Shown piece by piece: positions 3,728 to 46,046 of a DNA stretch of 64,000 bases. The translations under genes were made by a program, and so were the position numbers. The notes under the pieces are model-generated. The model did not search any database. It worked only from the letters and a program-made list of their open reading frames with translations, and had not been told where the DNA came from. Every line of letters starts with the position of its first letter. Position 1 is the stretch's first letter. Source of the DNA: Ilumatobacteraceae bacterium (lineage in GTDB: Bacteria; Actinomycetota; Acidimicrobiia; Acidimicrobiales; Ilumatobacteraceae); contig JALQUZ010000001.1 of NCBI GenBank assembly GCA_023263695.1, positions 51,040 through 115,039 of the forward strand, given 5' to 3'.

Positions 3728-5073
3728 CACGACATCAGTTCTTCCACACATTGTGCAAATACGGCTGTATGCAAATCAACATCGCTATCACTGTGAAATG
3801 GCGTCATGAGCGCCATGTTGTGAAATGGTGTTAACAAGATGCCTCGGTTCAATGCGTAGAGATGCATGAACGACTCGAGAGAATCGTTTACCGATGCTGC
3901 CGCCTGCGCTCCATTTTGTGGATGATCGGCAAACCAGTATTCGGCTCGACAGCCAAGTTGCTGAACTGTCCACGGAAGCTTGTGGCGATCAATGGTGGCT
4001 TGCACGCCTGCACTCCAACGCATAGCCAAGGGAATCGCTATATCGAAATCCTCCTGACGTAGCGCATGCGTGAGTGTTGCGCGAATTGCTGCACCCGCCA
4101 GCGCGCTTCCACTCAATGTGCCACCGATACCAGAAACATCGAGATCGTGGCCATGCATCAGGTCTTCTACCCTCCGTGAAATCTCGGCAGACATTCCATA
4201 AGCGGCAACGGGTATTCCACCTCCGATGGTCTTACCGATCACCAACATGTCTGGTTCCACGCCCCACAATCGTGATGCTCCTTGTGGACCTGCGCAGATG
4301 GTGTGAGTTTCATCGAGGATAAATATGACTCCATATTTTTTGGTGAGTTGTCTTACGCCTTCTAAATATCCTTCTTGTGGCAACACAATTCCGATGTTGG
4401 TTAGTGCTGGTTCCATAAGTACGCATGCAATTTCTCCACCGGCGAGCGCTCGTTCCATTGCTGCTAGATCGTTGAATGGCACCGCAATTGTGGTAAGGCC
4501 TGGATGTATCTGCGGACCAATTGCCCCAGGGCGGCTGACCGTTTCCCCATTTCGATCCAAAATGACAAGGGTTTCATCAACAGTTCCGTGATAGCACCAG
4601 TCATTCACCACAATTTTTGGCTTACCATTGAGTTGACGAGCAAGGCGCAAACTAAACCGATTCGCATCAGTTGCACTCAGGCAGAACTGCCATTTACTCA
4701 TTCCAAATCGATCCGTTAAATGATTAGCCACCCACGACAGATCCGCTGAAGGCAACATCGTGGTGAATCCTCGTTGGGACTGATGGGCTATCGCTTGAGA
4801 AATTGGTGCGTTGGCATGACCAGTCATAGAGCCGGTGTCACCTAAGCAAAAATCAACATAGGTATTGCCGTCAATGTCTACGATGCTGCCGCCCGCCGCA
4901 CTATCGGCAATTATGGGAAATGGTCCCGCCCATCGTTTCATCCAGGGCATCGGCACTCCGCCCAATAACGCAGTTTGCGAGTTGAACGACTCTTCCCGTG
5001 ATTGAGGATGTTTCTGAATGAACATTTCCACTTCAGCACCCATGAGTTCGGCAATTCGCAATTCGTCGATCAT
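3727..5073 (-). CDS. Class III PLP-dependent aminotransferase (glutamate-1-semialdehyde aminomutase-like)
   Basis: VDFCLGDTGSMTGHA, VNDWCYHGTVDETL, FILDETHTIC, IGKTIGGGIPVAAYG (PLP Lys). Confidence 0.88.
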   Translation of the reverse strand: MIDELRIAELMGAEVEMFIQKHPQSREESFNSQTALLGGVPMPWMKRWAGPFPIIADSAAGGSIVDIDGNTYVDFCLGDTGSMTGHANAPISQAIAHQSQRGFTTMLPSADLSWVANHLTDRFGMSKWQFCLSATDANRFSLRLARQLNGKPKIVVNDWCYHGTVDETLVILDRNGETVSRPGAIGPQIHPGLTTIAVPFNDLAAMERALAGGEIACVLMEPALTNIGIVLPQEGYLEGVRQLTKKYGVIFILDETHTICAGPQGASRLWGVEPDMLVIGKTIGGGIPVAAYGMSAEISRRVEDLMHGHDLDVSGIGGTLSGSALAGAAIRATLTHALRQEDFDIAIPLAMRWSAGVQATIDRHKLPWTVQQLGCRAEYWFADHPQNGAQAAASVNDSLESFMHLYALNRGILLTPFHNMALMTPFHSDSDVDLHTAVFAQCVEELMS

Positions 5074-5125
5074 CTCTTCATTCTTATTGATCCTCTGTTG
5101 AAGATGTTGCTTCTACACTGAATGC

Positions 5126-6361
5126 ATGTCAACGCTTCGGATAAATGGTCAACGCCTCATGGACCGTCTTATGGCTTTGGCGGCAATTTCACCTATTGAA
5201 GGGGGTGGAAATTGTCGTCTTGCATTGACTGATGACGACAAAGACGGGCGCGATCTCGTTGTTACTTGGATGAAGGATCTTGGTCTACACATATCGATTG
5301 ACGTGGTCGGAAATATTATTGGCACGTGGAATGTTGGGCACGGTGCCCCAGTCATGACTGGATCGCACATTGACACGGTGCGCACGGGTGGAAAATATGA
5401 CGGCAACCTCGGAGTTCTCGCTGGGCTACAGGTGATCGAAACTCTCCAGCAAGCAGGTGTCGAACCGCAACGGCCATTCGCTGTTGGAGTGTTTACCGAC
5501 GAAGAAGGAGCTCGATTTGCTCCTGACATGCTTGGTTCTCTGGTGTTCGTTGGTGGTCTTTCAGTCGAAGAAGCTCTAGACATTCGTGCAATAGATGGAC
5601 CTCGGTTTGGTGACGAACTGGAACGCATTGGATATGCGGGCAACACTCCTTGCCCTCAAAGGCCTCCACACGCATTTGTCGAGCTTCACATTGAACAAGG
5701 TCCTTTGTTGGAGGCAAACAATGTACGTATTGGCGCGGTAACCGGAGTTCAGGGAATTTCCTGGCAAGAGCTAACCATCACCGGACAGAGCAACCATGCA
5801 GGAACAACCCCAATGCGATTGCGTAAGGATCCTGTCGTGGTGGTTGCCGAAGTTGCGAAGTTCCTCCACGATCTCGCTCTGCGTTTTGGTGGTGATCAAG
5901 TCTGCACGGTCGGCAAAATAGATATTCACCCGAGTTTGATCAATGTTGTTGCGGCAAAAGCAACCATGACACTCGATGTTCGTAATACTGACGAAACACT
6001 GCTCAAGCAAGCCGAACACGAAATAGGTCAATTCATTTCTGAAATAGCGCAGCGCGAAGGCGTCACCACTTCCGTTCGCACTCTCGCTCGTTTCGAACCC
6101 GTGCAATTCGATCAACGTGTAATTGACATTATTTTCCAACATGCGTCTGACCAAGGCAACTCGGTGCAGTACATGCCGTCAGGAGCCGGACATGATGCTC
6201 AAATGCTTGCTCGCGTTTGTCCTACTGCGATGATCTTCACACAGAGCAAAGATGGACTCAGTCATAATCCGGCCGAATACACCTCACCAGAAGACCTCGA
6301 GGCCGGTGCCAACATACTGTTGCAAACCATGTTGACTCTTGCTGATACCGATTTCTCGTAG
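5126..6361 (+). CDS. M20-family Zn-dependent N-carbamoyl amino acid/ureide amidohydrolase (AllC/HyuC/beta-ureidopropionase type)
   Basis: TGSHIDTVRTGGKYDGNLGVLAGL, FTDEEGARF, ELHIEQGP, SGAGHDAQ. Confidence 0.9.
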   Translation: MSTLRINGQRLMDRLMALAAISPIEGGGNCRLALTDDDKDGRDLVVTWMKDLGLHISIDVVGNIIGTWNVGHGAPVMTGSHIDTVRTGGKYDGNLGVLAGLQVIETLQQAGVEPQRPFAVGVFTDEEGARFAPDMLGSLVFVGGLSVEEALDIRAIDGPRFGDELERIGYAGNTPCPQRPPHAFVELHIEQGPLLEANNVRIGAVTGVQGISWQELTITGQSNHAGTTPMRLRKDPVVVVAEVAKFLHDLALRFGGDQVCTVGKIDIHPSLINVVAAKATMTLDVRNTDETLLKQAEHEIGQFISEIAQREGVTTSVRTLARFEPVQFDQRVIDIIFQHASDQGNSVQYMPSGAGHDAQMLARVCPTAMIFTQSKDGLSHNPAEYTSPEDLEAGANILLQTMLTLADTDFS

Positions 6362-41501: not shown

Positions 41502-41587
41502 TGGTGCCCGAGGTGGGAGTTGAACCCACACACCCTTTCGAATAACGGATTTTGAGTCCGTCGCGTCTGCCATTCCGCCACTCGGGC
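41502..41587 (-). tRNA. tRNA-Leu(CAA), CCA encoded
   Basis: Acceptor GCCCGAG/CTCGGGC, anticodon stem-loop ACGGA-CTCAAAA-TCCGT, long variable arm, GGTTCAACTCC, 3' ACCA. Confidence 0.95.
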
Positions 41588-41645
41588 TTGAGTGAAGTGG
41601 GAAACAGCGTACCGACCCTTCGGAAGTTCTACGCTTGTCCCCGAC

Positions 41646-42833
41646 ATGCTTGCGTTCACCTTTCCAGGTCAGGGTTCACAGCGCCCTGGTATGGGCCAAC
41701 CCTGGGTTGGCCATGACAGTTGGGAGCTCGTTACTGAGGCATCCGATATTTCTCGCCGTGACGTGGGTCGCCTGCTGTTGAACGCCGATGCAGAGGAATT
41801 GAAGGACACCCGTAACGCGCAACTCACCACGTTTGTTTCTTCGCTTATGGTGCTCGATGCCGTAGAGCGACTGGGAATCGAACCGAGCCTGTGTGCAGGA
41901 CACAGCCTTGGCGAGTACACGGCACTTGCAGCAACGGGAGCACTTGGTTTTGACGAAGGCATCCGTTTAGTCGTAGCCCGAGCAAACGCGATGCACGATG
42001 CAGGTATTGAATCGCCGGGAACGATGGCTGCGGTTCTTGGACTCGATGATGACGAAGTTGAAACAGCATGTCGTCTTGCAGACAGCGATGTGTGGGTTGC
42101 CAATTTCAATGCCCCTGGTCAGATTGTTATTGCCGGATCGGCTGAAGGTGTCGCTAAAGCCAGCGAGCAGGCGAAAACCCTAGGAGCAAAACGTGTGATG
42201 GCGCTTCCGGTTTCGGGTGCATTTCACACGCCGTACATGACGAGTGCCCGTGAGCGTCTACGAGAAGCAATTGCATTGGCTAAGCCACGCAGCATCGACG
42301 TTCCCGTTGTAAGCAACGTTGATGCCCGTGCCCATGACAATGGCGAGGAGTGGTCAACTCTGTTGTCCGCCCAACTTTCATCTCCAGTGCGCTGGAAGCA
42401 TTGTCTGCTCACCATGGCCGAGGCAGGCGTAGTTGGTTTCATCGAACTTGGACCAGGTGGCGTGCTCACCGGTATGGCAAAGCGAACGATTGATGGATCA
42501 AAATCAATCAGCGTTGCGACTCCAGACGATCTTGACAAATTGATCGAATGGATCGATGCCCTTCAACCAACTGCAACTCTTCCACCCGGATCTGTTCACG
42601 AAGGCGAACATCTCTTTGCCGTCGAACGCATGGTGGTTTCACCAGTTGCTGGACTCTTTCAGAAAGACCAAACCATTGCGAACAAGACGCATATTGAAGT
42701 TGGCCAAACCATTGGTCACGTCGGCGAGTCAGAGGTACGTTCACCATTCGCAGGAATGTTGCAAAACTTCATCGCAGTAGATGGCGAACGGGTCACCGCA
42801 CACCAGCCAATCGCCTGGTTGCGGACTCACTAA
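41646..42833 (+). CDS. fabD: Malonyl-CoA:ACP transacylase with C-terminal biotinyl/lipoyl-like domain
   Basis: FPGQGSQRPGMG, AGHSLGEYTAL, GAFHTPYM; C-terminal VVSPVAGLFQKDQ..EVGQTIGHVGESEVRSPFAGMLQNFIAVDGERVTAHQPIAWL. Confidence 0.92.
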   Translation: MLAFTFPGQGSQRPGMGQPWVGHDSWELVTEASDISRRDVGRLLLNADAEELKDTRNAQLTTFVSSLMVLDAVERLGIEPSLCAGHSLGEYTALAATGALGFDEGIRLVVARANAMHDAGIESPGTMAAVLGLDDDEVETACRLADSDVWVANFNAPGQIVIAGSAEGVAKASEQAKTLGAKRVMALPVSGAFHTPYMTSARERLREAIALAKPRSIDVPVVSNVDARAHDNGEEWSTLLSAQLSSPVRWKHCLLTMAEAGVVGFIELGPGGVLTGMAKRTIDGSKSISVATPDDLDKLIEWIDALQPTATLPPGSVHEGEHLFAVERMVVSPVAGLFQKDQTIANKTHIEVGQTIGHVGESEVRSPFAGMLQNFIAVDGERVTAHQPIAWLRTH

Positions 42834-42844
42834 GGTTCTTTCGC

Positions 42845-43822
42845 ATGCCAACAATTCCTGCTCACGCCATTGGCGGTGTTATCACGGGTTGGGGTACTGC
42901 GCTCCCATCAAAAGTGGTGACCAATGAAGACCTGTCCAAAACCATGGACACTTCAGATGAGTGGATTCGCGAACGTACCGGCATCCATCGTCGACACATT
43001 GGCGGAACTACCGCTGAACTTTCCGTAGAAAGCGGACGAATCGCACTGGAAATGGCGGAAGTTTCTGCTGAACAGATTGATGCCTTGGTGCTGTCCACCA
43101 CAACACCCGACCGTCAGGTTCCAGCAACTTCTGCAACTGTGCAACATTCGCTTGGTTTAACATGTGGCGCCTTCGATATCAACGCAGCTTGTTCGGGTTT
43201 CGTATATGGACTTGTCGTTGCACACGGGCTTATCGCAATGGGATCCAAAAAGGTTTTGCTTATTGGCACCGACACGTTGTCACGAATTACAGACTGGACC
43301 GATCGCAATACCGCAATTTTGTTCGCAGACGGTTCCGGCGCAGCTGTTATTGAAGCAACAAGTGGACCAAGCCAATTGCTCGGTTGGGATTTAGACGCAG
43401 ATGGATCTGCTGAAGATTTGTTGTACGCCGAAATCGGCGGCAACATTCACATGGATGGCAAGGAAGTGTTTCGACGCGCAGTACGCATCATGGTGGATTC
43501 AGCACAAAAGTCCATGCACATTGCGGGAGTGACTGCTGACGACATTGCACTGATTGTTCCCCACCAAGCCAATACGCGCATCATTAGTGCGGCCTGCGAC
43601 AGGCTTGGCATTCCAATGGATCGCACGAGCACGGTTTTGCATGAAACAGGAAACACTTCTTCTGCAAGCATCCCTCTTGCATTATTCGATGCTGCAAACG
43701 GTGGTTCATTGAGCGGGCGAAACTTACGCGAAGGCGATTTGGTGTTGGTTGTGGGCTTCGGTGCAGGAATGACAGCGGCAAGTGCTGTGTTGCGCTGGAA
43801 CGGAAAGGGACTTCGAATATGA
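42845..43822 (+). CDS. fabH: 3-oxoacyl-ACP synthase III
   Basis: DEWIRERTGI, INAACSGFVYGL, VPHQANTRI, GNTSSASIPLAL. Confidence 0.96.
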   Translation: MPTIPAHAIGGVITGWGTALPSKVVTNEDLSKTMDTSDEWIRERTGIHRRHIGGTTAELSVESGRIALEMAEVSAEQIDALVLSTTTPDRQVPATSATVQHSLGLTCGAFDINAACSGFVYGLVVAHGLIAMGSKKVLLIGTDTLSRITDWTDRNTAILFADGSGAAVIEATSGPSQLLGWDLDADGSAEDLLYAEIGGNIHMDGKEVFRRAVRIMVDSAQKSMHIAGVTADDIALIVPHQANTRIISAACDRLGIPMDRTSTVLHETGNTSSASIPLALFDAANGGSLSGRNLREGDLVLVVGFGAGMTAASAVLRWNGKGLRI

Positions 43823-44541
43823 GCAACACCTCTGCGTCACCACGTGTGGTGTTAGTAACCGGCGGATCACGAGGTATCGGACTCGCTTGTGCACGACATT
43901 TCGCCACACTTGGAGATCATGTTGCAGTCACCTACAACTCTTCGCCACCACCAGATGATTTCTTTGCTGTGCAATGCGACGTCACGAAAAACGACGACGT
44001 CGATAACGCATTCAAGGCCATTGAAGAGAAATTCGGACCGGTTCAAGTGCTCGTATCAAACGCTGGCATTACGCGAGACGGACTACTTCTACGCATGGGC
44101 GAAGATGACTTCGCATCCGTGATTGATGCAAACCTCACCGCTGCCTATCGAGTGTGCAAACGCGCAACCCAGGGAATGCTTCGTGCACGTTCGGGTCGCA
44201 TCATCTTGATGTCGAGTGTTGTTGCTTTGCTTGGTTCGGCAGGTCAGGCAAACTACTCAGCAAGCAAGGCAGGATTAGTTGGCCTTGCGCGTTCGCTGGC
44301 ACGTGAATTGGGATCTCGCTCAATCACCGTCAATGTGGTTGCACCTGGGCCGATCGATACCGACATGACAGCGGCACTTGGCGAAAAACGTCTTGAAGAA
44401 CTTGCATCTGCCGTTCCACTTGGACGCACGGGAACCGTGGACGAAATCGCAGGAGTGGTGACATTTCTTGCAAGTCCAGCAGCCGCATACATCACCGGCG
44501 CTGTGATCCCTGTTGATGGCGGTCTCGGCATGGGCCATTAA
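43819..44541 (+). CDS. fabG: 3-oxoacyl-ACP reductase (SDR)
   Basis: VTGGSRGIGLACARHF, SNAGITRDGLL, YSASKAGLVGL, PVDGGLGM. Confidence 0.95.
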   Translation: MSNTSASPRVVLVTGGSRGIGLACARHFATLGDHVAVTYNSSPPPDDFFAVQCDVTKNDDVDNAFKAIEEKFGPVQVLVSNAGITRDGLLLRMGEDDFASVIDANLTAAYRVCKRATQGMLRARSGRIILMSSVVALLGSAGQANYSASKAGLVGLARSLARELGSRSITVNVVAPGPIDTDMTAALGEKRLEELASAVPLGRTGTVDEIAGVVTFLASPAAAYITGAVIPVDGGLGMGH

Positions 44542-44600: not shown

Positions 44601-44840
44601 ATGAGCCAGGAATTGTTTGTACGTTTCACTAAGTGTGCAGTAGACGTGTTGTCAGTTGACGCTTCGAAGATCACTCCAGAAGCAAGTTTCGGCGATGATC
44701 TTGATGCAGACAGCCTCGACCTCGTCGAATTGGTCATGGCACTCGAAGAAGAATTCGGTATTGAAGTACCAGAGTCCGATCTTGAAGGCGTCGACACGGT
44801 CGGCAAAGCCTTCGCGCTCGTCACGTCAAAAGTCAAGTAA
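44601..44840 (+). CDS. acpP: Acyl carrier protein
   Basis: FGDDLDADSLDLVELVMALEEEFGIEVPE phosphopantetheine site. Confidence 0.97.
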   Translation: MSQELFVRFTKCAVDVLSVDASKITPEASFGDDLDADSLDLVELVMALEEEFGIEVPESDLEGVDTVGKAFALVTSKVK

Positions 44841-44861: not shown

Positions 44862-46046
44862 ATGCAAGGAGCTGGCCATCGCATAGCTATCACCGGTTTT
44901 GGAGTGGTTGCACCCTGCGGCATTGGCAAAGAAGCCTTTTGGGCAGGATTACTTGGTCCAGGTTTTACTGGCGCTAAATCGATTGAGATTGAAAACTGGG
45001 ATCCGCTTCCCTATTTCGACAATCCAAAGGATGCACGTAGGTCGGACCGTTGCGAACAATTTGCGTTAGCAGCAGCAGGTGAAGCACTCGCCCAATCTGG
45101 TGAATTGCCTTACGACCACGCTCGTATCGGGACAATCTTCGGAACGGGTATTGGCGGTCTGCGCACACTCGAAGAGAACGTGATCACACGAGTGGAAAAG
45201 GGCGAGCGTCGCGTTTCTCCATTCCTTGTTCCCATGATGATGTCTAATGCGTCAGGGGCCGCAATATCCATGCGTTATGGATTCCAAGGGCCAGCAGAAA
45301 CCATTTGCACCGCATGTGCTGCAGCCACTCATGCAATTGGCAACGCCGCTCGCCTCGTTGCTTGGGGCCGTTGTGACGCAGTAGTTACAGGCGGCGCCGA
45401 AAGCGCTGCGACCATTACGGCACTTGCTGGTTTCAGCAATATGACTGCCCTGTCCAGCACACTGGTAAGCAAGCCTTTCGATGCAACGCGCGATGGTTTC
45501 ATCATGGGCGAAGGTTCCGCCGTGTTCGTGCTCGAGCGTATGGACTTGGCTATCGCTCGTGGCGCGACCATCATCGCCGAAATCGTAGGAGCCGCTAGCA
45601 ATGCTGACGCTCACCACATCACTGCTCCTTCGCCTGGCGGCGTAGGAGCTTCTCGTTGCATGCAATTGGCTCTTGAAGACGCTGGCCTACAACCAAGCGA
45701 TATCAAACAGATCAACGCCCATGGCACGAGCACTCCACTAAACGACGCGGCCGAAGCCCAAGCCATTGAATCGGTATTTGGCAAAGGCACTGTTCCGGTC
45801 GTGTCAATCAAAGGTGTAACTGGTCACCCGTTAGGCGCAGCAGGTGCTCTTGAAGCTGCAGCTGTGCTGCTCAGCATGGAAAAGAGGTTGATTCCACCAA
45901 CTGCTGGAACTCAATCAATCAGCGAAGACATGAATATCGATGTCGTCACCGGTTCGGCACGTCCTTGGGAACCAGGCCCAACCATTTCGAACAACTTCGG
46001 TTTCGGTGGCCATAACGGCTCCGTGATTATTTCGCCTTACAAATAA
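44862..46046 (+). CDS. fabF: 3-oxoacyl-ACP synthase II
   Basis: ICTACAAATHAIGNAARL, NAHGTSTPLNDAAE, GHPLGAAGALEA, NNFGFGGHNG. Confidence 0.96.
   Translation: MQGAGHRIAITGFGVVAPCGIGKEAFWAGLLGPGFTGAKSIEIENWDPLPYFDNPKDARRSDRCEQFALAAAGEALAQSGELPYDHARIGTIFGTGIGGLRTLEENVITRVEKGERRVSPFLVPMMMSNASGAAISMRYGFQGPAETICTACAAATHAIGNAARLVAWGRCDAVVTGGAESAATITALAGFSNMTALSSTLVSKPFDATRDGFIMGEGSAVFVLERMDLAIARGATIIAEIVGAASNADAHHITAPSPGGVGASRCMQLALEDAGLQPSDIKQINAHGTSTPLNDAAEAQAIESVFGKGTVPVVSIKGVTGHPLGAAGALEAAAVLLSMEKRLIPPTAGTQSISEDMNIDVVTGSARPWEPGPTISNNFGFGGHNGSVIISPYK

Follow-up and report, generated by a model that had tools for sequence, protein, structure and literature searches.

A cofactor-less BCCP-like domain, fused to FabD or encoded before fabH, as a candidate docking component of fatty-acid synthesis in Actinomycetota

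The FabD encoded in a 64,000-nucleotide stretch of the genome of a freshwater bacterium of the Ilumatobacteraceae (contig JALQUZ010000001.1; hereafter the window) combines, from N to C terminus, a complete malonyl transacylase, a flexible linker, and a small barrel domain (aa ~325-395) that resembles BCCP domains and has no cofactor site. Elsewhere in Actinomycetota the same domain occurs as a separate small gene. In either form, it has the look of a so far undescribed component of the fatty-acid machinery of this phylum, with a docking or control role; the open-access papers searched contain no description of the protein or of its context. We give a probability of roughly 55% to the reading that the domain is a cofactor-free descendant of an AccB-type BCCP, which on its flexible tether docks FabD to a partner making or using malonyl units.

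Architecture of FabD and its C-terminal domain

The fabD reading frame (window 41646-42833, + strand) starts with ATG and encodes 395 aa; the GTG at 41592, first listed as the start of this frame, is less likely. Just 5' of fabD, a tRNA-Leu-like gene was recognized by eye on the - strand (41515-41590; anticodon region ttttgag). Over aa 1-282, the protein exceeds the equivalog cut-off of the TIGR00128 fabD model (281.4 versus 260.9 bits), and its catalytic domain matches PF00698 with E=1.5e-37. FabD structures are the top Foldseek matches, and Ser87 (in GHSLGE), Arg112, His194, and Gln243, which we take to be the equivalents of the catalytic residues of E. coli FabD, are invariant in 45 relatives. 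The original prediction of a tail following a complete transacylase domain was thus correct, and the tail peptide it quoted is encoded exactly at 42540-42833 on the + strand. The features of the region are compiled in Table 1.

Table 1. Features of the fabD region and the genes following it (positions of the window)
Feature	Position	Strand	Evidence
FabD catalytic (malonyl-CoA:ACP transacylase) domain, aa 1-303	41646..42554	+	TIGR00128, PF00698, Foldseek, invariant catalytic residues
Flexible linker, aa 304-324	42555..42617	+	Low pLDDT; high dN
Cofactor-less biotinyl/lipoyl-like barrel-sandwich domain, aa 325-395	42618..42830	+	AlphaFold, Foldseek, profile matches
Two-residue turn Gly360-Glu361 replacing the biotinyl-lysine hairpin	42723..42728	+	DSSP of models; alignment gap opposite AMKM
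FabH, beta-ketoacyl-ACP synthase III, next operon gene	42845..43822	+	Pfam ACP_syn_III
FabG-like short-chain reductase, same cluster	43819..44541	+	ORF; homologues in equal order at related loci
Acyl carrier protein AcpP	44601..44840	+	Translation with DSLD motif
FabF, beta-ketoacyl-ACP synthase II	44862..46046	+	Pfam ketoacyl-synt

For the tail itself a barrel-sandwich hybrid of the biotinyl/lipoyl type had been proposed, with structure prediction as a check. AlphaFold returned this fold: the model of FabD, computed with 45 fused FabDs, had a mean pLDDT of 83.9, residues 326-394 being modelled as an all-beta barrel at pLDDT of about 92-96 and linker residues 311-325 falling below 50, consistent with a flexible tether. 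Modelled alone, the domain reached a pLDDT of 92.4 (barrel residues of the two models together, 92-98), and its best matches in a Foldseek search against the PDB were the BCCPs 5gua, 2evb, and 1bdo (TM about 0.75-0.84). Against Pfam Biotin_lipoyl (PF00364), the tail alone scored 14 bits, below the gathering threshold of 22.1 bits, so that standard annotation would miss the domain. Relatives of the tail reached E=9.3e-8 against Biotin_lipoyl. A profile of relatives aligned along the whole BCCP domain 2d5d (E=0.0016), and hhalign matched it with 98.4% probability (E=9e-15) to five BCCPs, four thumbed ones of actinobacteria and one encoded by the window genome. Judged by these models and profile matches, the tail is a barrel-sandwich hybrid nearest to BCCP domains.

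According to DSSP of the AlphaFold models, strands 355-359 and 362-365 are connected by a turn comprising only aa 360-361. The originally postulated deletion of the lysine hairpin therefore holds for the window FabD, but it is not a general rule, as the two-residue turn is limited to Acidimicrobiales-type copies while most others keep a hairpin of near-BCCP length that contains no lysine. The claim that the domain cannot be modified was borne out more broadly. A conserved lysine, sought in all domain columns of 181 related copies (including one genuine BCCP, L175), was found in none of them; the hairpin columns hold a lysine in 0-2 of the 181, and the most lysine-rich column (25/181) lies in the variable first loop. 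A modifiable lysine has consequently not merely been relocated, and modification at another lysine was rejected. Lacking the lysine motif, the standalone copies are not normal BCCPs either; the true BCCPs (L172, L173, L175, and L178) were separated from them by EAMK/EIMK. It is likely that the lysine was lost first and the hairpin shortened afterwards.

Distribution, gene neighborhood, and fusion history

A survey of related FabDs, which the original prediction had suggested, covered 151 genomes of the window's family; the tail is present in 143 of them, including all 77 of good quality. It also occurs in 73 complete FabD copies on named contigs, and a frameshift, a misassembly, or chance read-through was therefore rejected. 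Fused or separate, the domain occurs in 166 of the 198 genomes sampled for the order and, with a single-sequence query, in 48 of 148 for the class. The search covered Actinomycetota; loose phylum-wide matches (E about 1e-4 to 1e-9), probably mostly ordinary biotin domains, were left out of these counts, and a narrower alignment (A3) picks up only close, mostly fused copies. By their titles, the close relatives come from MAGs of Ilumatobacteraceae/Acidimicrobiaceae, freshwater ones among them, and several bear the label acIV. Nine contigs (L083, L084, L102, L110, L114, L116, L118, L119, and L127) are titled Bifidobacterium breve or Ferrithrix thermotolerans; their FabDs resemble or group with those of Ilumatobacteraceae, and they are probably mislabelled metagenome records. 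One genome (G297) has two fab clusters with fused FabD (L056 and L057); the first loop of the barrel contains a long and variable insertion there.

Comparisons of close relatives give the domain a dN/dS of about 0.02-0.13 where dS is estimable. The domain is under purifying selection, the constraint being somewhat weaker than on the FabD core but clear. In more distant pairs, dN of the linker exceeds that of both flanking domains, making it the fastest changing part. Conserved residues are also present beyond the domain core (GE..., ER, WLR).

In other members of the class and the phylum, the domain is a separate gene of ~90 aa (X), typically found in fabD-X-fabH-fabG-acpP-fabF clusters. Since loci were picked by their domain match and not by fabH, this neighborhood is informative. 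Among 172 copies at fetched loci with readable downstream sequence, many of the Acidimicrobiia copies being close relatives and not independent events, 166 lie directly 5' of fabH, two (L153 and L179) directly 5' of accD with no fabH between, and four elsewhere. The separate genes before fabH (n=34) show a median gap of -3 bp to it, i.e., they touch or overlap. Where fabD is not adjacent (L153, L157, L161, L166, L169-L171, and L179), the gene still lies 5' of fabH, in fabH-acpP-fabF-accD clusters, or of accD, and FabD thus need not be the sole partner. The initial framing was that of an oddity of FabD; in many lineages, however, the domain has a gene of its own, and its link to fabH is even tighter than that to fabD. 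In many clusters holding the domain gene, accD follows 3' of fabF. Operons with adjacent fabD and fabH and no domain exist as well (L227, L228, and a 9.2-Mb genome in L230), so that the FAS-II cycle as such can do without it. The four copies located elsewhere are separate genes outside fab clusters (L042 3874-4119, L046 ~3768-3998, L053 977-1222, and L159 ~4930-5170), the one in L053 just 5' of a gene that by eye resembles PlsC-type acyltransferases.

A tree built from 87 FabD cores is of the quick kind and has several long end branches; on it, the fused state needs four changes, and the starred branches force at least three. Fused forms belong to the Acidimicrobiales, to one group of actinobacteria with large genomes (f100), and to a further group (f134, f117, and f147). 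This pattern may reflect either repeated fusion or one old fusion followed by several splits; both histories suggest, by the ‘Rosetta stone’ argument, that FabD and the domain work together. Regarding its origin, the domain profile gives 30-49 bits to AccB-type thumbed BCCPs, which carry a thumb-like GTFYRSP motif, versus 15-21 bits for two other-type biotinyl domains of the window genome; unbiased AccB sequences are only L216, L226, and L229 (30-34 bits), the others having partly been found with that same profile, so that the set is small, but the trend holds. With AccB-type BCCPs as its best match, the domain probably derives from AccB and functions as a module free of cofactor. In our reading of these sequences, an accB of the FAS operon may have shed its biotin role and been retained as a protein-binding module, with the separate gene between fabD and fabH as the ancestral or an alternative state.

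Proposed function and competing explanations

Having lost the biotin arm, the domain would keep no more of a BCCP than its protein-binding surface. This would let it hold FabD near a source or user of malonyl groups, namely the ACC complex and/or the FabH-ACP initiation step, and such proximity would couple malonyl supply to chain initiation. In lineages having the separate ~90-aa protein, the equal job would be done non-covalently. A docking or scaffold role, as originally suggested, would fit several observations: the gene lies in a FAS-II operon, fusion to FabD recurs, the flexible linker evolves fast, and the cofactor site is lost. As to the partner, the adjacency to fabH favors the initiation side, while AccB ancestry and the accD neighbors favor ACC.

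A scaffold acting within FAS-II only deserves consideration. By binding FabH or ACP, the domain would keep FabD and FabH together, ACC being uninvolved and the BCCP ancestry incidental. The position directly before fabH, found even in fabD-less clusters (L157, L161, L166, and L169-L171), would be well explained, as would the window's own fab cluster, which has no accD next to it. We nevertheless regard this explanation as rather unlikely, because fusions to FabD recur while none to FabH was seen, and because of the two copies placed directly before accD. Less probable still is a control subunit that enters ACC, replacing or joining the biotinylated BCCP, and tunes assembly or activity of the carboxylase, with FabD serving only as a tether. 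There is a precedent in plant BADCs, non-biotinylated BCCP-like proteins without an AMKL motif that serve to control ACC or to assemble it (PMC11926652), and the AccB-type similarity of the domain and the presence of accD in many clusters point the same way. Against it, one of the biotinyl-domain proteins of the window genome is a BC-BCCP fusion that belongs to another type, a standalone AccB was not identified in this genome, and the recurrent FabD fusion suggests that the malonyl-transfer step matters.

AccB-like ancestry and the absence of the domain from some same-order operons would also suit a mere remnant of a former accB in the FAS operon, neutral or stabilising in effect and without any partner. 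This we consider highly improbable in view of its presence in every good family genome, the low dN/dS, its retention across distant lineages, and the conserved residues outside the core.

The docking of FabD by a cofactor-free AccB descendant can be extended to a broader proposal, which we put forward tentatively: in many Actinomycetota, such a module, as a FabD fusion or a small free subunit, might physically couple ACC to both FabD and FabH. It would then be the bacterial equivalent of BADC and a link that channels malonyl units. The enzymes of FAS-II are usually viewed as diffusing freely, with diffusion of malonyl-CoA as the assumed link between ACC and FabD. A conserved cofactor-less BCCP-like module at this junction makes physical coupling directly testable and provides an unannotated gene family of a major bacterial phylum with a concrete hypothesis. 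If true, a FAS-II component has been overlooked in many Actinomycetota.

Comparison with known systems

Ordinary FabDs (E. coli 1mla/2g1h, M. tuberculosis 2qc3, and 1nm2) have the transacylase fold and the catalytic residues in common with the window FabD, whereas their structures stop at about 302-320 residues, without the C-terminal barrel. With AccB-type BCCPs (E. coli 1bdo; Pyrococcus 2evb/5gua), the domain shares the barrel-sandwich fold, the half-motifs, and the glycine/proline core, and its extended first loop sits where AccB has its thumb. In contrast to the EAMKM lysine hairpin of AccB, it has the two-residue turn in the window FabD and a lysine-free hairpin in most other lineages; furthermore, it is attached to FabD or encoded before fabH, and not attached to biotin carboxylase. 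Positions 161-212 of the YqeB model (TIGR03309) resemble the domain as well, with 14 of 16 relatives matching (best E=7.8e-6), but YqeB, associated with the maturation of selenium-dependent Mo hydroxylases, differs in its genomic context, and the domain reaches 23 bits versus a cut-off of 220.

By analogy, plant BADC appears to be the closest functional parallel. Likened by its description, it too is a BCCP-like domain without a biotinylation motif that is tied to fatty-acid synthesis (PMC11926652). BADC is a separate plastid protein binding BCCP/BC, whereas the bacterial domain either forms part of FabD or has its gene next to those of FabD and FabH; the plant case indicates that evolution has used such a domain in ACC at least once.
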